Positions 49,820 to 59,769 of a stretch of 64,000 nucleotides of DNA are shown here, one piece after another. This DNA is from Spirochaetota bacterium (GTDB lineage Bacteria > Spirochaetota > Spirochaetia > Treponematales > Rectinemataceae), in contig JAPLSO010000051.1 of NCBI GenBank assembly GCA_026398595.1, forward strand, positions 170,198 through 234,197. The letters are read 5' to 3'. The position numbers and the translations under genes were made by a program. Under the pieces are notes generated by a model. The model did not search any database. It was not told the DNA's origin and worked only from the letters and a program-made list of their open reading frames with translations. Position 1 is the first letter of the stretch; each line of letters opens with the position of its first letter.

Positions 49820-50281
49820 TTAGTGTGAATAAAGCGAAACGGTCAACGTATCCTGATATACACCAGCAGGAAGGCTCAGGCTCGACGCGGTTGCATAGGT
49901 TGCGGAGACCGCCAAGGTTGTTACAGGCTGTGTTCCGGTTGGTGCCAATGAATATGCAGTAGCTAGGTTAATGGCTGTTACAGATCCAACATTTAGCTTA
50001 TAGGGATACGCATTCGTACCATACATCATCTTGCCGCCATTCGCGGAAGTAATAGTGAGAGTATATCCATTAAGGTTCGAAGATATAACAATATTGCCCA
50101 AGCTTTTGCTTGTTTCCGTTGGATCAAGTGTGGAGGGTGAAGGTATAGTCGAACTCAGAGTAAGCGTATAATCCACACTCGCACTCAAGGTAATGTTCGA
50201 TGAACTGACCAATGTGTCGGTGGCAAACACTGGTACGCCGATAAGCGCGATCAAGAGAGCGATAATCAAAGGCTTTTTCAT
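49820..50281 (-). CDS. Small secreted beta-rich protein, array member 1
   Basis: A 153-residue protein with signal peptide MKKPLIIALLIALIGVPVFA. The mature part is Ser/Thr-rich, lacks cysteine, and follows the array pattern. A central SLGNIVISSNLNGYTLTITSANGGKM is followed by an AYPYKL strand, and it ends GVYQDTLTVSLYSH. The SN-x-x-x-W/Y-x-L/I-x-I-x-S and final Y-x-DT-x-TV-x segments recur in the other members. The C-terminal strand resembles that of fimbrial or spore-coat-U subunits, but no chaperone or usher is nearby. GAGGAG precedes the ATG. Function unknown; a surface or periplasmic structural role is inferred. Confidence 0.8.
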   Translation of the reverse strand: MKKPLIIALLIALIGVPVFATDTLVSSSNITLSASVDYTLTLSSTIPSPSTLDPTETSKSLGNIVISSNLNGYTLTITSANGGKMMYGTNAYPYKLNVGSVTAINLATAYSLAPTGTQPVTTLAVSATYATASSLSLPAGVYQDTLTVSLYSH

Positions 50282-50361
50282 TTCTTTCTCCTCATAAAAA
50301 CTTTAAAACATAATACTTGGATAGACTTTTACAATACACATAGCTTCATGTCAATACACCA

Positions 50362-50853
50362 TCAATCACCTAATAGTGATATTGTAATTGTATCGTGGTA
50401 GATGCCCATGGGCCAAATAATCCCAACATGCGGAAGAAAAGTAAGGTATAAGGTCAATAATTCCCCGCTGGAGGCGGTTTTCTGCTGGGCAGCACTCTGG
50501 ATCGCAAACCGGGACACAACCACCGTATCCCCATCTTTTATGGCAAATAAATAAGGAATATAGGTTTCCCCATCGTCAAGCTTGAGCCTTCCGGTATCTT
50601 GATTCTGTGCGTAGCTGGAACTGATGCTCATTTTCCACGCTGCTTGGTTACTGATGACAAGTGCGTTGCTGACTGCCTTGGTGGTTATCACATCATCGTT
50701 TTCGTTCAGCAAATCAATAGTCTCGGGATCAGCCATTGTGATATGCAGAATTGATGGAACATCACCTATCACGACAAGACGATTGTTGTCTTGGGCAAGA
50801 ATAGATAATTGAATAAAGAAAAAAGCAATCAAGAAAGATACTATCTTTTTCAT
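50362..50853 (-). CDS. Small secreted beta-rich protein, array member 2 (divergent)
   Basis: A 163-residue protein with signal peptide MKKIVSFLIAFFFIQLSILAQ. It is the most divergent array member: acidic (ADPETIDLLNENDDVITT), with the shared segment ALVISNQAAWKMSISSS, a YIPYLFAI strand, and the C-terminal GIYHDTITISLLGD. No good Shine-Dalgarno sequence precedes the ATG. A short CCAAAACTTTTTGG palindrome lies 12 bases upstream. No cysteine. Function unknown. Confidence 0.75.
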   Translation of the reverse strand: MKKIVSFLIAFFFIQLSILAQDNNRLVVIGDVPSILHITMADPETIDLLNENDDVITTKAVSNALVISNQAAWKMSISSSYAQNQDTGRLKLDDGETYIPYLFAIKDGDTVVVSRFAIQSAAQQKTASSGELLTLYLTFLPHVGIIWPMGIYHDTITISLLGD

Positions 50854-50865
50854 TTACTTATTCAA

Positions 50866-50879
50866 CCAAAACTTTTTGG
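50866..50879 (-). promoter_or_regulatory. Hairpin upstream of array member 2
   Basis: CCAAA-AAGT-TTTGG on the minus strand, 12 bases before the start codon. The weakest of the four leader hairpins. Confidence 0.3.
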
Positions 50880-50939
50880 AAATCGGACATATAGCAAGGC
50901 GACAATCAATTGATCAACGCCTTGCTGCTTAATAATCAC

Positions 50940-51476
50940 TCAGGTTGTAGCTGTAATAGTGATAGTGATTGTATCAGTGTAAGCAGTACTGGCTTGGTAA
51001 AGCAATGCGCTGTCGTCCTGGTTGCTGGCTGCAACAGTAAGTACATAATCGACACCAGTTTTAGTCGTTCTGCCGCCATCGGTAATCGTAACATCCTTAG
51101 CCGCAGTAAGCTGAACGGCGGTTAGGACGGTTCCGGTTGGAGTAGTACCAGCTGCAGTGCTGACCGCAAGCGTGTAAGGGATTGCCACGCCACTAATAGC
51201 AGGGTCCTTCAGAGTACCAAGATTCGTAGAAGTGAAAGAAAGCTTGTACGCCTTTTTATTTGAGATGACCGTAAGCGTTCCATTCTTGTCTGCACTGGGG
51301 TTTGTCGAAGCATTGTTGAAGTTGTCGGGAAACGTAATACTGATCGGCGTATTGGTCACATTAACATACAAAACCGGGCTGACGGTAGCGTTTACCACGA
51401 GATCGGGATTGGATGCCGCCGAAACGGAGCCGACTGCCACAAGGGCAGCGATCAGAAGAACCGCAAACTTTTTCAT
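50940..51476 (-). CDS. Small secreted beta-rich protein, array member 3
   Basis: A 178-residue protein from MKKFAVLLIAALVAVGSVSAA (signal peptide), with GAGGTG before ATG 51476; the ORF-track extension is rejected. Pattern: VSPVLYVNVTNTPISITFP, then GTLTVISNKKAYKLSFTSTNLGTL, IPYTLAV, the segment KTGVDYVLTVAAS and the C-terminal TAYTDTITITITATT. Thr-rich and without cysteine. Related to the flanking genes. Function unknown. Confidence 0.8.
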   Translation of the reverse strand: MKKFAVLLIAALVAVGSVSAASNPDLVVNATVSPVLYVNVTNTPISITFPDNFNNASTNPSADKNGTLTVISNKKAYKLSFTSTNLGTLKDPAISGVAIPYTLAVSTAAGTTPTGTVLTAVQLTAAKDVTITDGGRTTKTGVDYVLTVAASNQDDSALLYQASTAYTDTITITITATT

Positions 51477-51497
51477 ATACACCTCACAATTCTTTAC

Positions 51498-51511
51498 CCT
51501 GCTCAAGCAGG
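51498..51511 (-). promoter_or_regulatory. 5' leader hairpin of array member 3
   Basis: CCTGC-TTGA-GCAGG on the minus strand, 21 bases before the start codon and just upstream of the ribosome site. A T-run flanks it only on the plus strand, so it is not a minus-strand terminator. Confidence 0.45.
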
Positions 51512-51645
51512 ATTTTTTATCGTGTGGAAAAAGACAGAAGGCAGAACACAGAAGCAGATCATCTGTACTTTCTCACAATCACAACTTTGATCAACTTAAT
51601 TGTACCAACAACACTAAAAGCATGTCAATTACTTCCTATAGTTCC

Positions 51646-52164
51646 TCAAGCACCGATAACCGTAACGGTGATGGTATCAGCGTAATCTGTGGCGGTTTGC
51701 CAGAGTGTATCAGTCACATTCTGAGCAGGAATGGAAATCGTCAGCAGATAACCGACACCCTGCTTGGGAGTTTTGCCGCCCGCGGTTGCCTGGATGGTTT
51801 TACTCGCGCCCATCAGAACGGTGCTCGACATAGAATTCGTTACGGTACCAGTGAAAGTTCCCTGGAGGGCAGCCTGGATATAATAAGGAATACTCGTTGT
51901 GGTAGCAGTGCTGTAAAGGCTCCCCGATTTGGCTGAAGTAAGCGTAACAGTCCAGGCAGTAGTATTGGCAAAAACCGTTAAAAGGGATGTAGAGGCTGCA
52001 GCGGTTCCAGCGCTTCCATCACCCGTGAAAGAAAATGCCATAGAGGAAGTGCCAAGTGTTACATTTGTGTAATTCGCAACGCTTCCAGTGAGTCCGAGAG
52101 TCGCGGCTGAAGCCGAACTCACGGCGATGAGCGTGGCAACCAGAAGAAGAACCAACTTTTTCAT
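51646..52164 (-). CDS. Small secreted beta-rich protein, array member 4
   Basis: A 172-residue protein with signal peptide MKKLVLLLVATLIAVSSASAA and GGAGG before the ATG. It shows the array pattern: SLLTVFANTTAWTVTLTSAKSGSLY, SIPYYIQA, the Lys-Thr-Pro-Lys-containing GGKTPKQGVGYLLTISI (also found in member 5 as NKTPKAGTTYALSIAF), and the end ATDYADTITVTVIGA. No cysteine. Closest to members 3 and 5. Function unknown. Confidence 0.8.
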   Translation of the reverse strand: MKKLVLLLVATLIAVSSASAATLGLTGSVANYTNVTLGTSSMAFSFTGDGSAGTAAASTSLLTVFANTTAWTVTLTSAKSGSLYSTATTTSIPYYIQAALQGTFTGTVTNSMSSTVLMGASKTIQATAGGKTPKQGVGYLLTISIPAQNVTDTLWQTATDYADTITVTVIGA

Positions 52165-52184
52165 ATAGGCCTCCGAGAACTTTT

Positions 52185-52199
52185 CCTGTCAGCGACAGG
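52185..52199 (-). promoter_or_regulatory. 5' leader hairpin of array member 4
   Basis: CCTGTC-GCT-GACAGG on the minus strand, 20 bases before the start codon, immediately upstream of the ribosome site. Confidence 0.45.
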
Positions 52200-52442
52200 T
52201 TTTAAATATGTTGATTGGAAGAAAGATGCCTGACAAACAGAAGTTGTACTTTTTTTATGCCCGATGTAGAACTTTTTCCTTCTCAATCAGTTGAAAAGAT
52301 TGTCTTCATTTATAAGAAATAAGTCAATGGGTCTAGATTATATTTCACTCCATAATTACCGATGCGTACCGATTTTAAAATTCTTTTGGAAATCAACGGT
52401 GAACGCGATCTATTAAAGCGGAAAAGCAAAAGACGGCATTTT
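52200..52442. other. AT-rich intergenic stretch between array members 4 and 5
   Basis: About 240 bases without a convincing gene. It should hold the promoter of member 4. A 14-base segment CGGTGAACGCGATC (52397-52410) is repeated inside member 5 (52564-52577), which suggests a small duplication or an eroded gene end. Nothing else was recognised. Confidence 0.4.
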
Positions 52443-52471
52443 AAAAAACCGACGGGATTTCTCCCGCCGGT
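52443..52471 (-). terminator. Terminator of array member 5
   Basis: On the minus strand ACCGGCGGGA-GAAA-TCCCGTCGGT followed by a T-run. Confidence 0.85.
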
Positions 52472-52492
52472 CAGTGCCCTGGTCCGCCTCCG

Positions 52493-52969
52493 TCAAGATC
52501 CGGAGATCGTCACCGTAAGCGTATCGCTGTAGGTTCCAGTCTGCCAGAACGTTGTCGTGCTGGCGGTGAACGCGATCGACAACGCGTAGGTGGTGCCCGC
52601 CTTCGGCGTCTTGTTCTGAGCCGTACTGGTCCACGTGGTGTTCAGACTCTTGGCCGAAGCCAAGGATCCAAGCGTCATCGTGTACGTGGCCGTCTCGCTG
52701 GCATCGGCGGTATTCTTCAAATAGCCGCCGTTAACAGACGAAATCGCTATGGTCCAGCTGTTATAGTTGCTCGTCACACCTATATTGCCAATGCTCCAGG
52801 TGTTGGCCGCTCCGGACGTATCATCCATCACAGCAGTAAAAGAACCCGGGAGCGTCAGCGCGAGCTGGGGAGCCACCGTTCCAGTCATGCCAACCGTACC
52901 AGTCGTAGCCGCAGACGCAAAACCCAACATGGCAAGCGCGAACAGAGACACGAAAGCAAACTTTTTCAT
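52493..52969 (-). CDS. Small secreted beta-rich protein, array member 5
   Basis: A 158-residue protein from MKKFAFVSLFALAMLGFASAA (signal peptide); AGGAG precedes ATG 52969, and the 34-residue extension in the ORF track is rejected. Pattern: VAPQLALTLPGSF, WSIGNIGVTSNYNSWTIAISSVNGGYL, ATYTMTLG, NKTPKAGTTYALSIAF and the end GTYSDTLTVTISGS. No cysteine. It is first of the five in transcription order and more GC-rich than members 1-3. It has its own terminator, so members are probably expressed separately. Confidence 0.82.
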   Translation of the reverse strand: MKKFAFVSLFALAMLGFASAATTGTVGMTGTVAPQLALTLPGSFTAVMDDTSGAANTWSIGNIGVTSNYNSWTIAISSVNGGYLKNTADASETATYTMTLGSLASAKSLNTTWTSTAQNKTPKAGTTYALSIAFTASTTTFWQTGTYSDTLTVTISGS

Positions 52970-52982
52970 GAGAGACTCCTGA

Positions 52983-52999
52983 GCCATGTATGCCATGGC
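52983..52999 (-). promoter_or_regulatory. 5' leader hairpin of array member 5
   Basis: GCCATG-GCATA-CATGGC on the minus strand, 13 bases before the start codon, just upstream of AGGAG. Confidence 0.45.
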
Positions 53000-53117
53000 A
53001 ACTTTTGTAAATTTGCGCCTCTGCGCCATAGGGGCGTGAGACGCATACTTTGAAAAAAGTATATGCGGCATTAAAACCTAATGTCAATAGTTGGCAGAAT
53101 AGACAAGCGCTTCGATT

Positions 53118-54410
53118 TCAGCTTTCCCTGATCACGAGATCCTCGTAGTTCTCCCGTCGGACGGAAAGTCTGTACCCTCCGCCTCGGGTCATGACTACGG
53201 CTGGCCTCGGGATGCGGTTGTAATTCGAGGCCATGGAGTGGTTATACGCCCCCGTCGAGAATACGGCGAGGATATCACCCGTTTCAGGATCGGGAAGCCC
53301 GAGGTCGCGAATGAGGATGTCGCCCATTTCGCAGCATTTTCCCGCTATAGTCACGGTCTTGGAGGGCTCAAGGCCGGCTTTATTGGCTAAAAGTCCATAG
53401 TATTTTGCCTCGTAAAGCGCCGGTCGGATGTTGTCAGCCATGCCTCCGTCGACGCCTACGTAGGTTCGGATCCCCGGGATGGTTTTTACCGATCGGATGG
53501 TGTAGAGAGTCAGGCCGGCCTCGCCAATGATCCACCGGCCCGGTTCTATCGCCACCCACGGCATGGGGAGCCCGGCCTCGGCTGTCTTTTCGGCAATGAG
53601 GGCCATCATAGGGTCGAGGAAGTAGGAAAGGCCTGGCGCATTGTCGGATGGCAGGTACTTGATGCCAAAGCCGCCGCCCAGGATAAGTTCCTTCGTCTCG
53701 AAGCCGTATGAAGCTTTGACGTCAGCCATGAGCTTCAGGGCTATGCCTGTGGCAGCCAGATGGGAGAAATTGTCGTAGAGCTGGGAGCCGATGTGGAAGT
53801 GAAAGCCCCTGAAATCGATATGGGCCGCGTCGAGGACTGCCCGCATGTAGAGGTCACATACGGAAGGGTCGAGAGGGATCCCGAATTTGGAGTCGAGGCT
53901 CCCTGTCGATATGAATCGATGCGTGTGACTGTCCACACCCGGGGTTATCCGGTACAGCAGGGCTTGGCGCCTTCCCAGGCCGGCGGCAATCCGTTCGATC
54001 TCGGCCACCTCGGCCAGATTGTCGGAGACGATCCTCCCGACGCCAACCCGTAGAGCGTAATCCAGCTCATCGGTCGACTTGGCGTTGCCGTGGAAGGTGA
54101 TTCGACGGGGATCGACTCCAGCCTTGAGGGCCGCAAAGAGCTCGCCGCCAGACACGGCATCCATGCCCAGGCCTTCCTGGATGACGATCCTGCACATGTC
54201 GAGAGTCTGGAAAGCCTTGCTGGCGTAATAAGCAGCCGTATTGGGGTATTTTTCGAGAAAGGCCGAGCGGATTTCCGCGCAGCGTTCCCTGACCAGGGAT
54301 TCCGAGACAACGTAGAGGGGAGTGCCCTGTTCGGCGGCAAGCTGGACAAGGTCGACGCCGTCGAGAAAGAGTCTGCCGTCTTTTACGGATGCGTGGGAGT
54401 TCGGTACCAT
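53118..54410 (-). CDS. lysA: Diaminopimelate decarboxylase
   Basis: Last step of lysine synthesis, decarboxylation of meso-diaminopimelate by a PLP enzyme of fold type III. The 430-residue product has the PLP lysine in AYYASKAFQTLDM, HGNAKSTDELDYAL, the glycine loop ILGGGFGIKY, EPGRWIIGEAG, and the catalytic Cys region GKCCEMGDILIRD. The ORF track starts 42 codons too early; ATG 54410 fits the family N terminus, has no ribosome site, and follows TACTAT by seven bases. Divergent from the C26 amidohydrolase. Strict specificity for meso-DAP is assumed from the family. Confidence 0.93.
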   Translation of the reverse strand: MVPNSHASVKDGRLFLDGVDLVQLAAEQGTPLYVVSESLVRERCAEIRSAFLEKYPNTAAYYASKAFQTLDMCRIVIQEGLGMDAVSGGELFAALKAGVDPRRITFHGNAKSTDELDYALRVGVGRIVSDNLAEVAEIERIAAGLGRRQALLYRITPGVDSHTHRFISTGSLDSKFGIPLDPSVCDLYMRAVLDAAHIDFRGFHFHIGSQLYDNFSHLAATGIALKLMADVKASYGFETKELILGGGFGIKYLPSDNAPGLSYFLDPMMALIAEKTAEAGLPMPWVAIEPGRWIIGEAGLTLYTIRSVKTIPGIRTYVGVDGGMADNIRPALYEAKYYGLLANKAGLEPSKTVTIAGKCCEMGDILIRDLGLPDPETGDILAVFSTGAYNHSMASNYNRIPRPAVVMTRGGGYRLSVRRENYEDLVIRES

Positions 54411-54417
54411 AGCGAGG

Positions 54418-54423
54418 ATAGTA
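54418..54423 (-). promoter_or_regulatory. TAnnnT box of lysA (leaderless type)
   Basis: TACTAT on the minus strand, seven bases before the lysA ATG, no Shine-Dalgarno sequence. Confidence 0.4.
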
Positions 54424-54491
54424 CACGATTCATCCGCGGTAATAAAGAGAGAAAATGATCCGCCCCGGTGGAACGCGAAGGACGGGTCGTA

Positions 54492-54497
54492 TAGAAT
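54492..54497 (+). promoter_or_regulatory. TAnnnT box of the C26 amidohydrolase gene (leaderless type)
   Basis: TAGAAT ends seven bases before ATG 54505; no Shine-Dalgarno sequence. Confidence 0.4.
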
Positions 54498-54504
54498 GTG
54501 CTGT

Positions 54505-55227
54505 ATGAAACCGCTTATCGGAGTATCGACATTCAATGAAAAACAGCCAAGGTCCGTATACTGCTCGGTCAGCGTCCGCTACCTGCAATCGGTCTCAGAC
54601 GCGGGGGGCCTCGCCGTCACTCTGCCAGTGAGCTCCCCCGGCGAAGCTGAAGCCTTCATCGTCAGGATCGACGGACTCATCCTCACTGGCGGCAAAGATA
54701 CCGATCCCGAGTTCTACGGACAAGAACCGGCCAGGGGCCTGCGAACTTTCGACTCCCAGCGCGATGAATGGGAATTGGCCCTCTTCCGGGCAGCCCTCGA
54801 GAGAGGAATCCCCGTGCTAGGCATCTGCAGGGGACATCAACTCATCAACATAGCCCTGGGTGGAAACGTATACCAGGACCTTTTAATCCACCGTCCCGGC
54901 ACGAACCTCCACAATCCTGAGGAATTCCCCGTCGATCGTCCATTTCATGGCATTTCCATCATCGAAGGTTCATTGCTCCACAAGGTTTTAGGGGAAACCT
55001 TGACGAGGGTGAACAGCTTCCACCACCAGGCCGTGAAGGATCTGGGCCAAGGCCTGACGGTTACCGCCCTGGCCGCGGATGGGGTCGTGGAAGCCATCGA
55101 GTCGACCGATCCGGATCGATTCATCCTGGGTGTACAATTCCACCCCGAGGGGCTCACCAGGATTTCCCCTAAGTTCCTGGGCATCTTTTCAGCCTTTGTG
55201 AACGAAGCGAGCAAGCCGAAAGCCTGA
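54505..55227 (+). CDS. Class I glutamine amidotransferase-like hydrolase (peptidase C26)
   Basis: A 240-residue gamma-glutamyl hydrolase of the PuuD type. The nucleophile Cys sits in VLGICRGHQLINIALGG, LILTGGKDTDPEFYG is the oxyanion and substrate region, and VNSFHHQAVKDLG and VQFHPEG supply the catalytic His and Glu. Such enzymes cleave gamma-glutamyl amides such as gamma-glutamyl-GABA. The ORF track start is 61 codons early and runs through the lysA promoter. No polyamine genes adjoin, so the true substrate is open. Convergent with the LD-carboxypeptidase. Confidence 0.9.
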   Translation: MKPLIGVSTFNEKQPRSVYCSVSVRYLQSVSDAGGLAVTLPVSSPGEAEAFIVRIDGLILTGGKDTDPEFYGQEPARGLRTFDSQRDEWELALFRAALERGIPVLGICRGHQLINIALGGNVYQDLLIHRPGTNLHNPEEFPVDRPFHGISIIEGSLLHKVLGETLTRVNSFHHQAVKDLGQGLTVTALAADGVVEAIESTDPDRFILGVQFHPEGLTRISPKFLGIFSAFVNEASKPKA

Positions 55228-55239
55228 GGTTCCGGATAT

Positions 55240-56214
55240 TCAATCCGAAAAAGGCGACTCGAGCAGGCAGAAATCCCCGGCAGTGGCGTCGAGAAGGTAT
55301 CGTACACCCAGCGCCAGTGTGAGGCTCGGCTTCCCGTGGCCTGCCTGCAGTCCGGCGAGGATGGGTTTGCCGGCGGATACCAAAAGATCCTCAAGGATCT
55401 GCCGTATCGCAAGCGATCTTTTTTCCTTCGGAGCCTCGCAGCGGGTCCAGGAACCGATGAGAATCCCTTCGCATGCCTCGAAGACGCCGGCCAGTCTCAG
55501 CTGGTTCAGCATGCGATCGATCCTGTAGGGCGCCTCGTCCACATCCTCGATGAAGAGGATCTTTCCCCCGGCGTCTATCTGCCAGGGCGTGCCCATGGTC
55601 GCGGCCAGAAGGGAGAGGTTCCCGCCCGTGAGTTCGCCCTCCGCGATGCCCGCCGCGATGGTTTCCAGCGCCAAGCCATCAGGGTTAGCCAGGAAACGGG
55701 GAAATTGCTCCCCGAAGAGAGTCTCTTCAAGAGATGATCGGGAGACCGGGTCGAGCTCGGGCACCATGTCCGAGGAGGGCATTGGACCGTGGATCGTGAC
55801 AAGACCGGCGACCTGCCTGAAAGCCGTGTGGAGGGCCGTGATGTCACTGTAGCCGAGGAAGAGCTTGGGGTGGGCTGCCATGATGCCATAGTCAATGCGG
55901 TCGAGGATCCGGGGCGTGCCGTAGCCCCCCTTCAGGCAGATGACGGCATTCGTATCGGGATCGAGGAAGGCCCTCTCCAGTTCAGCAGCCCGTGTTTCGT
56001 CGCTTCCGGCGAGATAGCCATAGACGTCGGCGCAATGGGGCGAAGCCGATACCTCGAATCCCAGGGATTCGAGAGCGTGGATCGAAGCCTCGACCCTGGC
56101 TGAGTCGAAGGCCGAGCCCGAGGGTGCGACGAGGAATACCCTATCGCCCTTGTGGAGCCGCCGGGGCTTGATGCGCAGGCGGGCTTTAGGCGCGCCGCCA
56201 GATCCGCGGTTCAT
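55240..56214 (-). CDS. LD-carboxypeptidase (peptidase S66)
   Basis: A 324-residue muropeptide LD-carboxypeptidase that removes the terminal D-Ala from tetrapeptides during peptidoglycan recycling. The S66 signatures are VFLVAPSG at the N terminus, CLKGGYGTPRILDRIDY, the nucleophile Ser in LFLGYSDITALH, and later GGNLSLLAATMGTPW, LFIEDVDE and HGKPSLTLALGV, with Glu and His of the triad. No signal peptide is present, so it is cytoplasmic. ATG 56214 overlaps the stop of the M20D gene by four bases; the ORF-track extension is rejected. MccF-like immunity enzymes share the fold and cannot be excluded. Confidence 0.9.
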   Translation of the reverse strand: MNRGSGGAPKARLRIKPRRLHKGDRVFLVAPSGSAFDSARVEASIHALESLGFEVSASPHCADVYGYLAGSDETRAAELERAFLDPDTNAVICLKGGYGTPRILDRIDYGIMAAHPKLFLGYSDITALHTAFRQVAGLVTIHGPMPSSDMVPELDPVSRSSLEETLFGEQFPRFLANPDGLALETIAAGIAEGELTGGNLSLLAATMGTPWQIDAGGKILFIEDVDEAPYRIDRMLNQLRLAGVFEACEGILIGSWTRCEAPKEKRSLAIRQILEDLLVSAGKPILAGLQAGHGKPSLTLALGVRYLLDATAGDFCLLESPFSD

Positions 56215-57398
56215 GGCTTTTTCCCGAGAAGGGCCAGGGTCGTCGCGACATGCATGGCGACACCCACGGGCAGACAGGCTTCGTCGATGTCGAAGTCCCT
56301 GGAGTGCAGGGCAGCCGTGATTCCTCTTCCGGGATTGCCGCAGCCCAGGTGATAGAAGGCTCCTGGGCGCTCCTGGAGGAAAAAGGAGAAGTCCTCGACC
56401 CCGAGACTCGGCTTTTCCTTCCAATGAATGGAGTCGGATCCCAGGATTTCCCTCGCCTTTTCGGCCATGAGATCGACGACCCAGTCATGGTTGATCAAGG
56501 CTGTATAGCCGGGGATTATCTCGGCTTCCCCCGTGCCGCCGAGAGCTTCCGGGATACCGGAGACAATAGAGCGGACCCGTGCGCCCACAACGGCCCGCAC
56601 CGCTGGATCGGTTGTTCGGATCGTCCCAGTCATCTCGACCCTATCGGCGATGATATTGTTCCTCGTGCCCCCGTTGATCGTCCCCAAGGTAATGACTGCT
56701 TCCGAGAGCGGCGATACGTATCGCGATACGACCGCATGGAGGGCGTCCACGACCTTGGCCGCTATCATGATGGCATCGATCCCCAGATCCGGGTAAGCGG
56801 CGTGGCCACCCTTCCCTTTCACCACGAGACGCAGGACATCGGAGGCGCCGTTGAATGCTCCATGCTTGAGTTCGACCATGCCGACAGGGACGCTGGGCTG
56901 GACGTGGCAGCCGATGATATAGTCGACATGGGGATTCTCGAGGCATCCCGCCGCTATCATATCGGCGGCGCCACCTGTCGTCTCCTCAGCCGGCTGGAAG
57001 AGTAGTTTGACGGAACCCTTAAGCCCTTGTTTCCGGGCGGCGAAGTATCTGGCCGCGCCAAGGGCTACCGTCATATGGGCATCGTGGCCGCAGGCATGCA
57101 TGTAGCCTTCGTGCCGGGATCTATTGGGCCTGTTCTCCGGCTCGACGACAGGCAGGGCGTCCATGTCGGCTCGCATGCCCACGACGGGCCCTGGCTTTCC
57201 GCCCTCGACGAGAGCTACCACAGAGGTTTTGCGTTTTTCGTAAGGCAGGCCCAACCCATCGAGGATCCTGCAGAGTTCCCTTTGCGTCTCGTATTCCTCA
57301 TCCCCGCCTTCCGGTATCCTGTGCAGGGATCGCCGCGTATCCACGAGCCAATCCATCATGGCCCAGGTCTCGCCGAGTAGGCTGTCCTTAGTCATCAT
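56211..57398 (-). CDS. M20D amidohydrolase (N-acyl amino acid / hippurate hydrolase type)
   Basis: A 395-residue metallo-amidohydrolase starting at ATG 57398 with AAGGAG upstream. Metal-site motifs are MRADMDALPV, YMHACGHDAHMTV, QPAEETTGGAADMI with the catalytic Glu pair, GCHVQP, and HSRDFDIDEACLPVGV near the end; the dimerisation domain holds VVKGKGGHAAYPDLGIDAI. Family members hydrolyse hippurate, N-acetyl-amino acids, N-acetyl-diaminopimelate or amidated peptides. Because it overlaps an LD-carboxypeptidase and follows dapF and alr, a role in muropeptide or DAP-derivative turnover is plausible, but this is inference. Confidence 0.9.
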   Translation of the reverse strand: MMTKDSLLGETWAMMDWLVDTRRSLHRIPEGGDEEYETQRELCRILDGLGLPYEKRKTSVVALVEGGKPGPVVGMRADMDALPVVEPENRPNRSRHEGYMHACGHDAHMTVALGAARYFAARKQGLKGSVKLLFQPAEETTGGAADMIAAGCLENPHVDYIIGCHVQPSVPVGMVELKHGAFNGASDVLRLVVKGKGGHAAYPDLGIDAIMIAAKVVDALHAVVSRYVSPLSEAVITLGTINGGTRNNIIADRVEMTGTIRTTDPAVRAVVGARVRSIVSGIPEALGGTGEAEIIPGYTALINHDWVVDLMAEKAREILGSDSIHWKEKPSLGVEDFSFFLQERPGAFYHLGCGNPGRGITAALHSRDFDIDEACLPVGVAMHVATTLALLGKKP

Positions 57399-57454
57399 CG
57401 ACACTCCTTGCGACTCAGGGCGGACCCAGGTGGGCCACCCACCCCTTTTATGTT

Positions 57455-57733
57455 CTACAGAAACCTCAGTGTAGATCCCCAAAGCCTGTCATCCATCGCT
57501 ACGGGCTTTCCGCCTCTGAGATAGAGAAGAGACACCCTTCTTCCAATCCCGCAGAGGATTTCGTTCCTGTTCGTTGTTCCCCAGGCCGCAGCAAGGAGGT
57601 AGTCGGGCGTATGGCCCATAACGAGGAATTCGGCGTCCTTGAAACGCGAACGCAATTCCATGGCCTCGGAGAGGGTGGCGACGGCGAAGCAGGTCTGGCA
57701 TCTCAAATCCGTGAGGATGGATGCATCGATCAT
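57455..57733 (-). pseudogene. Short alanine-racemase-like fragment
   Basis: A 92-residue ORF starting inside the dapF stop (ATGA overlap). Residues 12-46, CQTCFAVATLSEAMELRSRFKDAEFLVMGHTPDYL, resemble the alanine racemase segment FAVAxLxEAxxLRxxG-xILVLGxTP. Neither the N-terminal PLP lysine region nor the rest of the barrel is present, and the C-terminal half (GIGRRVSLLYLRGGKPVAMDDR) is unmatched. A full alr gene lies one gene upstream. It may be the decayed remnant of a second racemase copy or a small protein of its own. It continues the operon toward M20D. Confidence 0.45.
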
Positions 57734-58656
57734 CGTCTAATACCCGGAGATATCGCGCCTGCTTCGGCGAGTATGGAGAGCATGACTGGGGAGAAAACGC
57801 CGCCGTAGATCCTCACGGCCGGCCCTGTCATCCGAATCGAGGGAAAGGAAAGGTCGAGGTGCAGAGTGCCGCCCGGCATTTGCATCTCAACCTTGCCCGA
57901 GACGTAGCCGAGCCGTCGAGCAGCCGCGGCGGCGGCACAGGAGGAGGAGCCGCTTGAGAGCGTGTAGCCTGCCCCTCGCTCCCAGATCTCAATCCTCATG
58001 CGGTGAGGCCCGAGAACCTTGGCGAACTGTACGTTCGTCCTCCTCGGAAAGAGGGCGTTGTTTTCGACAAGAGGACCGAGCCGTTTCGCGAGTTCGGGGC
58101 TGGGATCATCCACGAAAAGAACACAGTGGGGGTTGCCCATGGACACGAAGATCGCGGGAAGTCGCTCGCCTCCGAGTTCGAGTTCTCCGAGAATGAATTC
58201 GGCCGCATCGCATGCCAGTCCTCCGTCTCGCGCGGAAAAGGAGGGCTCGCCCATATCCACACGTATCCTGGGCGGATCGAGGCTCTCGACTTTCGAGCGC
58301 ACAACGCCGCCCAAGGTTCCTACGGCAAACTCCTCGCCGCCTACATAGCCGGCCTCAGCCAGATACAGGGAGAAAATCCTCAAGCCGTTGCCGCTTTTCT
58401 CGGCCTCCGATCCGTCGGGATTGAATATCCTCAGCCAGGGGGTCACCTCCGCCGCGAGCCGTCCGATCGTCGGAAAACCCTGGAGATCGCCGGCTCCGGC
58501 CAGGGGACCCAGAAGGATGCCATCGGAGCCGGCTCCCCTGTTCCTTTCGCAGATAGCCTTGATCGCATCTGGTTTGGGGACGAAAGGGAATTCGCGCGGA
58601 TCGATCACGATGTAGTCGTTGCCGAGACCGTGGTACTTCAGGAAATCCAATCGCAT
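57730..58656 (-). CDS. dapF: DapF-like epimerase family protein with both catalytic cysteines replaced by serine
   Basis: A 308-residue protein with the diaminopimelate epimerase fold and motifs: KYHGLGNDYIVID, RNRGAGSDGILL, RIFNPDGSEAEKSGNGLR, VSMGNPHCVLFV, RRTNVQF, WERGAGYTLSSGSSSCAAAA. In family members the first catalytic Cys lies in xCGNGxR and the second in xACGTGxCA; here they read KSGNGLR and LSSGSSSCA, so both are serine. The rest of the substrate-binding frame is kept. It may be an altered epimerase, an isomerase with different chemistry, or a non-catalytic homologue. GAGGAG, inside the end of alr, precedes the ATG. Confidence 0.85.
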   Translation of the reverse strand: MRLDFLKYHGLGNDYIVIDPREFPFVPKPDAIKAICERNRGAGSDGILLGPLAGAGDLQGFPTIGRLAAEVTPWLRIFNPDGSEAEKSGNGLRIFSLYLAEAGYVGGEEFAVGTLGGVVRSKVESLDPPRIRVDMGEPSFSARDGGLACDAAEFILGELELGGERLPAIFVSMGNPHCVLFVDDPSPELAKRLGPLVENNALFPRRTNVQFAKVLGPHRMRIEIWERGAGYTLSSGSSSCAAAAAARRLGYVSGKVEMQMPGGTLHLDLSFPSIRMTGPAVRIYGGVFSPVMLSILAEAGAISPGIRR

Positions 58657-58662
58657 CGAGAT

Positions 58663-59769
58663 TCACTCCTCGTAGATTCTTGGCACCCTTTGCGAGATGC
58701 CGCAGGTGATCTCGTAATCGATCGTGTCCGCAATTCGGGACAGTTCGCCGACAGGCAGTTCGGGAGTGCCAAAAAGGATAACCTCGTCGCCAATGCCCGC
58801 CCCGGGGATATCCGTGAGGTCGATCAGCGTCTGGTCCATGCACACCCTGCCCAGGACGGACACCCTCTTTCCCCCCACCAGGACTTTGGCCCTGTTGGAG
58901 AAGGTCCGCCAATAGCCATCCGCGTACCCCAACTGGAGGAGGCCGACCCGGGTATCTCGGGCCGCCGTGAAAATCCTTCCATAGCTCAATCCGTCACCCC
59001 TTGGGACGATCCTCAGATTGGCGATTCTGGATCGCAGGCTCATGACCGGTTTTAATCCTTCCGGCAGCGTCATCTCACCCCCCGGCGACAGGCCATAGAG
59101 TATGATTCCCGGCCTTACCATATCGAACCGCGCCTCGGGAAGGTCCAGGATGGCGGCGCTGTTGGCGATATGGGCAATCTCGGGCGGAGTGCCCGCTGCT
59201 CTCATCGCCTCGAGCGCCTCTTCGAAGCGCCTTATCTGGAGGAGGCTGAAACTCTTGTCCGGACTGTCCGATTCGGTGAAATGCGAATAGGCGCCCTCCA
59301 GGGATAGGCCTTTTAAACCGGCCAGGACCCCAGCGAAGCGCCTCGCCTCCTCGTATCCGATGCCCTGCCGGTGCATGCCCGTATCGATTTTGACATGTAT
59401 TTTGGCTCTCTTGCCCAGGCGGACGGCCGCCTCCGAAAGCGCCCGCGCCAGCTCCTCGGTATAGACCGTCTGGCTGATGCCCTTCGCCACGACGATCTCG
59501 GCGTTCTCGGGATCTGTCGTGCCCAGGACGAGAATAGGCGTCCCGATGCCTTCCTTCCTCAAATCCAGGGCTTCCTCGATGAAGGCCACGGCCAGGAAGT
59601 CCACTTTAGCCTTTTCCAGGGCGCGCGCCACAGCGATGGCCCCATGGCCGTACGCGTCGGCCTTGACGATGGCGCAGATCCTGGCTCCAGGCGACAGGCG
59701 CCGTATTTCCCGGTAGTTCCCGATGAGCTTTCCCAGATCGACGAGAGCCCAGGTAGACCGTCCTTTCAC
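58663..59769 (-). CDS. alr: Alanine racemase
   Basis: Makes D-alanine for peptidoglycan. The 368-residue PLP fold type III enzyme has the PLP lysine in ICAIVKADAYGHGAIAV (near 35), FLAVAFIEEALDLRKEG, VHIKIDTGMHRQGI, the phosphate-binding SNSAAILDLPEARFDMVRPGIILYG, and the catalytic Tyr plus VLGRVCMDQTLIDLTDIP near 300. It overlaps nagA by four bases and is followed six bases later by dapF. Translation of nagA, alr and dapF is coupled. All main residues appear intact. Confidence 0.95.
   Translation of the reverse strand: MKGRSTWALVDLGKLIGNYREIRRLSPGARICAIVKADAYGHGAIAVARALEKAKVDFLAVAFIEEALDLRKEGIGTPILVLGTTDPENAEIVVAKGISQTVYTEELARALSEAAVRLGKRAKIHVKIDTGMHRQGIGYEEARRFAGVLAGLKGLSLEGAYSHFTESDSPDKSFSLLQIRRFEEALEAMRAAGTPPEIAHIANSAAILDLPEARFDMVRPGIILYGLSPGGEMTLPEGLKPVMSLRSRIANLRIVPRGDGLSYGRIFTAARDTRVGLLQLGYADGYWRTFSNRAKVLVGGKRVSVLGRVCMDQTLIDLTDIPGAGIGDEVILFGTPELPVGELSRIADTIDYEITCGISQRVPRIYEE

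Follow-up and report, generated by a model that had tools for sequence, protein, structure and literature searches.

Diaminopimelate (DAP) epimerase, DapF, is the model cofactor-independent racemase, in which a cysteine thiolate takes a proton with a pKa of ~29 and a second cysteine returns one. The enzyme is also an antibacterial target via its catalytic cysteines (aziridino-DAP type inhibitors, thiol oxidation), and a redox switch has been described for the DapF of Corynebacterium glutamicum. A dapF-like gene of a Spirochaetota bacterium (Rectinemataceae), located in the 64,000-nucleotide stretch of contig JAPLSO010000051.1 analysed here (the window), encodes serine at both catalytic positions, thereby raising the question of what a DapF without these thiols does. 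A natural, widespread Ser/Ser class is a test of whether thiols are needed at all: gene content suggests a normal DapF job in many bacteria, an outcome not predicted by textbook chemistry. On the basis of sequence comparison and genome content, we estimate a probability of roughly two in three that the window gene encodes the host's only DapF-type LL-DAP epimerase and belongs to a large Ser/Ser DapF class.

The gene and its neighbours are arranged as follows, in the direction of transcription:

58663-59769, minus strand: alr, alanine racemase (TIGR00492, 374.7 bits), upstream of dapF
57730-58656, minus strand: Ser/Ser DapF homologue, 308 aa, ATG start (TIGR00652, PF01678, AlphaFold2 model)
57455-57733, minus strand: remnant ORF of 92 aa, an internally deleted second alanine-racemase-like gene
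56211-57482, minus strand: M20 amidohydrolase (TIGR01891, 347 bits), true start probably further in
55240-56424, minus strand: S66 LD-carboxypeptidase (PF02016 and PF17676), true start probably inside the ORF
53118-54536, minus strand: lysA, diaminopimelate decarboxylase (TIGR01048, 423 bits; cut-off 298), true start probably inside the ORF

The dapF reading frame is intact, with 308 codons and no internal stops. Its product scored 210.5 bits against the NCBIfam DapF equivalog TIGR00652 (cut-off 114.65) and 165.6 bits against Pfam PF01678 (DAP_epimerase), which was its sole Pfam match; the proline racemase family PF05544 did not match. The bifunctional DapF/glutamate racemase model of Chlamydia, NF038284, gave 55 bits against a cut-off of 350, and the Ala_racemase domain is absent, so the protein does not belong to the PLP-dependent DapF2 type. 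By sequence family the protein is a DapF; lacking the Cys/Cys pair that defines the canonical enzyme, it does not count as one of that kind. Score-based annotation would miss this change, because the NCBIfam model scores the protein far above its cut-off. The codons concerned are the following:

58396-58398, minus strand: Lys87, a clade signature residue
58393-58395, minus strand: Ser88 (AGC), at the first catalytic cysteine position (C73 in Haemophilus influenzae, C83 in C. glutamicum)
57952-57954, minus strand: Ser235 (AGC), at the second catalytic cysteine position (C217 in H. influenzae, C221 in C. glutamicum)
57943-57948, minus strand: Ser237-Ser238, Thr-Gly in Cys/Cys DapF

The first active-site motif reads EAEKSGNGLRIF and the second ERGAGYTLSSGSSSCA (context TLSSGSSSCA). 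In pairwise alignments to solved DapFs, Ser88 and Ser235 fall exactly on the catalytic cysteines, and the canonical Cys/Cys acid-base pair is therefore missing. In C. glutamicum DapF, the residue aligned with Ser237 is Thr223, which binds a carboxylate (residue roles from PMC5296763). An AlphaFold2 model, computed with an alignment of locus-encoded relatives, reached a mean pLDDT of 94.3 and a pTM of 0.92; in this model, helix 89-101 begins right behind Ser88 and helix 236-248 right behind Ser235. The top PDB matches to the model were DAP epimerases, 9MRO first (E 2.9e-33, TM 0.82/0.91), and the proline racemase superfamily gave distant structural matches only; a DapF fold is thus predicted. 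A natural Ser/Ser enzyme was not apparent among solved structures in a sequence search with two Ser/Ser queries, whose only hits, at the 35% identity level, were DapFs already known and two engineered single mutants, 2Q9H and 2Q9J. The original prediction had described a double cysteine-to-serine change at both active-site motifs, in a gene that was no obvious pseudogene and whose fold was conserved. The alignments, the intact frame and the predicted fold bear this description out, and its placement of the gene was also correct: alr lies upstream, the remnant ORF, M20 amidohydrolase and S66 LD-carboxypeptidase lie downstream, and lysA is present as stated.

Errors in the sequence of two codons of an otherwise ordinary DapF, or decay of the gene, were considered as an account of the two serines, and nothing was found in their favour. 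Relatives were taken as the best 80 from a scan of ~85,000 genomes, a query-biased set that provides no prevalence estimate; they comprised 58 Ser/Ser, 18 Cys/Cys and 2 Cys/Ser proteins, together with 2 truncated after a KSGNG first motif. The presence of the same serines in 58 of the 80, in independent assemblies, excludes chance and sequencing error, the latter having been named in the original prediction as a possible cause of its failure. The recurrence extends to dozens of separately assembled genomes, complete chromosomes among them, and with the frame intact we regard error or decay as negligible. According to the genome records, in which titles of metagenome-assembled genomes (MAGs) can be wrong, the Ser/Ser relatives come from ~17 phyla: Spirochaetota, Bacillota, Chloroflexota, Verrucomicrobiota, Desulfobacterota, Myxococcota, Acidobacteriota, Cyanobacteria, Nitrospirota, Aquificota, Atribacterota, Fibrobacterota, Actinomycetota, Pseudomonadota, Dadabacteria, Rokubacteria and Latescibacterota. 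Ser88 is encoded by 59 AGY and 12 TCN codons and Ser235 by 20 AGY and 51 TCN codons in the Ser/Ser rows; both codon families are used at both sites, indicating that serine was kept through codon-family switches.

Trees were built without the motif columns. In the careful tree of 104 rows, the Ser/Ser and Cys/Ser proteins fell on one side of a branch with 100/100 support (bootstrap/SH-aLRT), and the same branch received an SH-aLRT of 99 in the quick tree. The single Ser/Ser clade whose existence the original prediction had asked about was thus recovered, with two Cys/Ser members inside it; the window protein lies within this clade and carries its K-S-G-N-G and S-G-[ST]-S motifs. Lys87, Ser88, Ser235 and Ser238 were present in 72/72 Ser/Ser rows and in 0/37 Cys/Cys rows, in which position 87 is mostly Met or Gln and never Lys; one later Ser/Ser exception (L248) has Val for Lys87. 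Further class-specific positions are I94, Q210, E223, I224, Y231 and M260. The two Cys/Ser proteins (L041 and L080) are nested within the Ser/Ser clade and therefore look like reversions at the first site. Lys87 is replaced in both (by N and M), which ties this residue to Ser88. A described Ser/Ser DapF was not found in the open-access literature, a coverage that mostly leaves out subscription journals, and this suggests that the Ser/Ser DapFs form a large branch previously unremarked in that literature.

The substrate site was compared with that of C. glutamicum DapF, in which DAP is contacted by N15, N74, N85, N159, N194, E212, R213 and T223 and alanine mutants of these eight residues almost abolished activity (PMC5296763). 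The equivalents in the window protein are N13, N79, N90, N175, N208, E226, R227 and S237, and all DAP contacts are thus represented. They were found in 66/66 Ser/Ser rows, with the exception of R227 (65/66, one R227L) and of position 237, which is Ser or Thr. His177, present in the window protein as H177, is likewise invariant across the 66 rows.

Genome content was then considered. The PF01678 protein is single, and is the Ser/Ser one, in 32 of 48 genomes with a Ser/Ser relative, a count drawn largely from MAGs. LL-DAP aminotransferase, DapL (TIGR03542), was above cut-off in 12 of these 32 sole-copy genomes (G065, G066, G074, G082, G085, G086, G088, G090, G095, G096, G098 and G102), and DAP dehydrogenase (Ddh) in none of the 12; among all 61 genomes searched, Ddh was above cut-off in one (G081). 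These 12 genomes, with DapL present and Ddh absent, would produce LL-DAP while lacking any further known DapF. Gene neighbourhoods point the same way. In a Ruminiclostridium MAG (L046, 7377-10098), the Ser/Ser dapF has lysA on one side and on the other a gene for an LL-DAP aminotransferase, apparently broken in two by a frameshift; in a cyanobacterium the Ser/Ser dapF adjoins lysA. In one relative (L004), in-frame TGA was considered as recoding and rejected: both TGAs are C-terminal, outside the domain, and read as ordinary stops.

Two different roles for the protein can be weighed at this point. In the first, the protein would not be the DAP epimerase; it would descend from DapF and racemise or epimerise some other amino acid, or be an enzyme of the lyase type. 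Substrate shifts do occur in related folds (HisR, O-ureidoserine racemase, the proline racemase superfamily), about a dozen positions are class-specific, and in some genomes the Ser/Ser protein occurs beside a Cys/Cys DapF. Several Bacillota genomes have both forms; in one of them (G064) the Cys/Cys copy adjoins dapL, so that the Ser/Ser protein could have another job in two-form genomes. Where a genome has two copies, the neighbouring families (nitroreductase, chemotaxis receptor, PhzF, adenine deaminase) revealed no consistent alternative pathway. Among 393 Spirochaetota genomes, 16 showed the strict Ser pattern and 77 the strict Cys pattern, with both present in 3. Since the DAP contacts are as invariant as in Cys/Cys DapF, 12 genomes combine DapL with neither Ddh nor another DapF homologue, lysA and DapL genes are neighbours, and the two forms replace each other one for one in one family (below), we consider another substrate unlikely. 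The second is a catalytically dead protein, kept for example as a scaffold or regulator. Both catalytic thiols are lost, and moonlighting is known for DapF, the E. coli enzyme stimulating RppH (PMC4227774). A dead protein would not need an invariant DAP pocket, the serines and the substrate site are invariant over ~17 phyla and through both codon families, and the sole-copy genomes would be left without a known DAP epimerase; this second role is accordingly very improbable.

The clearest comparison of the two forms was obtained in a verrucomicrobial family (Ca. Didemnitutus; Opitutaceae). Among 61 Opitutaceae-group genomes, 46 have the Ser/Ser form, 8 the Cys/Cys form, none both and 6 neither, with 1 undetermined; the mutual exclusion is significant in Fisher's exact test with kinship uncorrected (p = 1.2e-6). 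The 46/8/0 split is the pattern of one-for-one displacement by an iso-functional enzyme. The eight Cys/Cys DapFs (L217, L221, L233, L242, L245, L246, L252 and L254) form one separate clade (100/99). In the same alignment, eight Cys/Cys rows have Val for the DAP-contacting Asn175; these rows are probably the eight Opitutaceae-group proteins, and a change to Val (V145) is likewise seen in the pocket of Chlamydia trachomatis DapF. The only PF01678 protein of genome G469 is the Ser/Ser form. DAP has been detected by GC/MS, in low amounts and with LL- and meso-DAP not resolved, in Opitutus terrae and Lacunisphaera, the latter having a DapL-pathway gene set (PMC5303756). The original prediction had expected a weakened, relaxed or redirected enzyme. 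This expectation is not supported, given the invariant DAP-binding residues, the frequent status as sole DapF homologue and the one-for-one replacement in this family, and the Ser/Ser DapFs are probably a widespread, thiol-free and functional class.

In the host, the pathway search covered asd, lysC, dapB, dapD, lysA, Ddh and DapL. An asd-lysC-dapB-dapD operon was found (L197, 9344-5244), its dapB match of 112 bits being just under the cut-off of 122, and the retention of this operon implies that an epimerase is still needed for lysine. A second PF01678 gene, and with it the Cys/Cys DapF whose possible presence had been raised in the original prediction, was not found in the host assembly (93% complete). 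Ddh as a bypass had no match above cut-off in the host (best 22 bits), and for DapL the host had nothing beyond weak matches to aminotransferases, the best of them scoring 93.6 bits where the cut-off is 364.7. Host MurE (L180, G000:C29) has EDPR at the DAP-discriminating motif, as have three spirochaete relatives, whereas the MurE proteins of Nitrospira, Desulfococcus and Didemnitutus have DNPR, the DAP-type motif. The EDPR motif suggests that the third residue of the host peptidoglycan is ornithine instead of DAP, and Spirochaetaceae have been described with L-ornithine peptidoglycan (PMC3726837); the need for meso-DAP thus probably comes from lysine synthesis and not from the wall. The original prediction had suggested that ornithine in the wall could have relaxed or redirected the enzyme. 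The wall may indeed use ornithine, as the host MurE suggests, but a tie to the Ser/Ser change is not supported: the clade extends over ~17 phyla and takes in organisms with DNPR-type MurE and with DapL, and a spirochaete-specific relaxation was rejected on these grounds.

The alr genes around dapF bring in another candidate, a PLP-dependent alanine-racemase homologue that epimerises DAP, with the Ser/Ser protein auxiliary or non-catalytic. Gene order in the relatives is HAD, nagA, alr, dapF, (alr2), M20 amidohydrolase, (S66), lysA; in the window, as at two related loci (L005 and L008), dapF is flanked by alr genes, and a PLP-type 'DapF2' has been proposed for staphylococci (PMC9026213). The second alanine-racemase-like gene is intact after dapF at both related loci. 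In the host it is deleted, the halves of the remnant matching two parts, residues 88-118 and residues 387-430, of a 432-aa protein encoded after dapF in L008, whereas dapF is intact. Apart from the remaining alr (58663-59769), no Ala_racemase_C gene was found in the genome; at 374.7 bits this alr has the score of a genuine one, and D-alanine supply presumably depends on it. Outside spirochaetes, no alr neighbour was present at the Ser/Ser loci compared, and a PLP-dependent substitute is therefore improbable, leaving the Ser/Ser protein as the favoured epimerase. In several spirochaete relatives an M20 gene follows dapF, directly or one gene on; the M20 amidohydrolase may be an N-acyl-LL-DAP deacylase. 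About five small, secreted-looking, Ser/Thr-rich paralogues in tandem (49820-53071, minus strand) adjoin lysA in the window.

With the Ser/Ser protein as the epimerase, we infer that it would most likely convert LL-DAP to meso-DAP for LysA-dependent lysine synthesis. The two-base geometry would be kept, with Ser88 and Ser235 transferring the proton in place of the thiols, and Lys87 beside Ser88 and the extra hydroxyls of Ser237-Ser238 beside Ser235 could tune or relay the proton; in a variant of this mechanism, Lys87 itself would be one of the two bases. Against this mechanism, the textbook pKa of serine makes it less suited than cysteine to act as a base (PMC8142540), and engineered single Cys-to-Ser changes slow catalysis in the DapF fold, as with C67S and C209S in HisR (PMC11602996) and as remarked in general terms elsewhere (PMC12039745). 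The co-evolved signature would set the natural Ser/Ser class apart from such engineered mutants. We lean, if only slightly, towards a thiol-free, cofactor-free two-serine epimerase with a co-evolved lysine and extra serine being the sole DAP epimerase of many bacteria in many phyla. If this is true, the rule of an obligatory cysteine thiolate pair for DAP racemisation in the DapF fold is wrong, and enzymes of the class would resist thiol-directed inhibitors and a redox switch of the C. glutamicum type.

The window protein resembles canonical DapF (H. influenzae, E. coli, C. glutamicum) in fold, length, DAP contacts, place in the DAP/lysine pathway and the siting of the active-site residues, which are found where two central helices have their N-termini. 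It differs in the serines for both cysteines, in Lys87 and Ser238, and in belonging to a separate clade (100/100). A working precedent from the sister proline racemase superfamily is the 4-hydroxyproline 2-epimerase B9JQV3, which shares the overall type of fold, works with two bases and has a Ser93/Cys pair with serine for the first catalytic cysteine; a crystal structure is available (PMC4113996). This enzyme keeps the second cysteine, belongs to another superfamily branch and acts on another substrate. No precedent for serine at both sites in a working epimerase was found in the open-access literature. A comparison dehydratase has, like the window protein, a catalytic serine and cysteine at neither site, but it is no epimerase and its second residue is a non-catalytic Thr. 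DcsC (O-ureidoserine racemase, 7VDY) and the histidine racemases HisR/CntK share the DapF fold and cofactor-independent racemisation, whereas they have a Cys/Cys pair and act on other amino acids; they were not among the rows of the tree built here. The staphylococcal 'DapF2' (PMC9026213) is likewise a proposed substitute for a missing Cys/Cys DapF, but with an alanine-racemase fold, PLP dependence and an unrelated sequence. A further active-site change was observed in four same-order relatives (L103, L105, L106 and L107), in which the first catalytic position is occupied by Ala or Gly (MAGN, GGN) while the second cysteine is kept; this DapF-like group lies within very long open frames of ~1350-1440 aa and is possibly a fused, altered enzyme.
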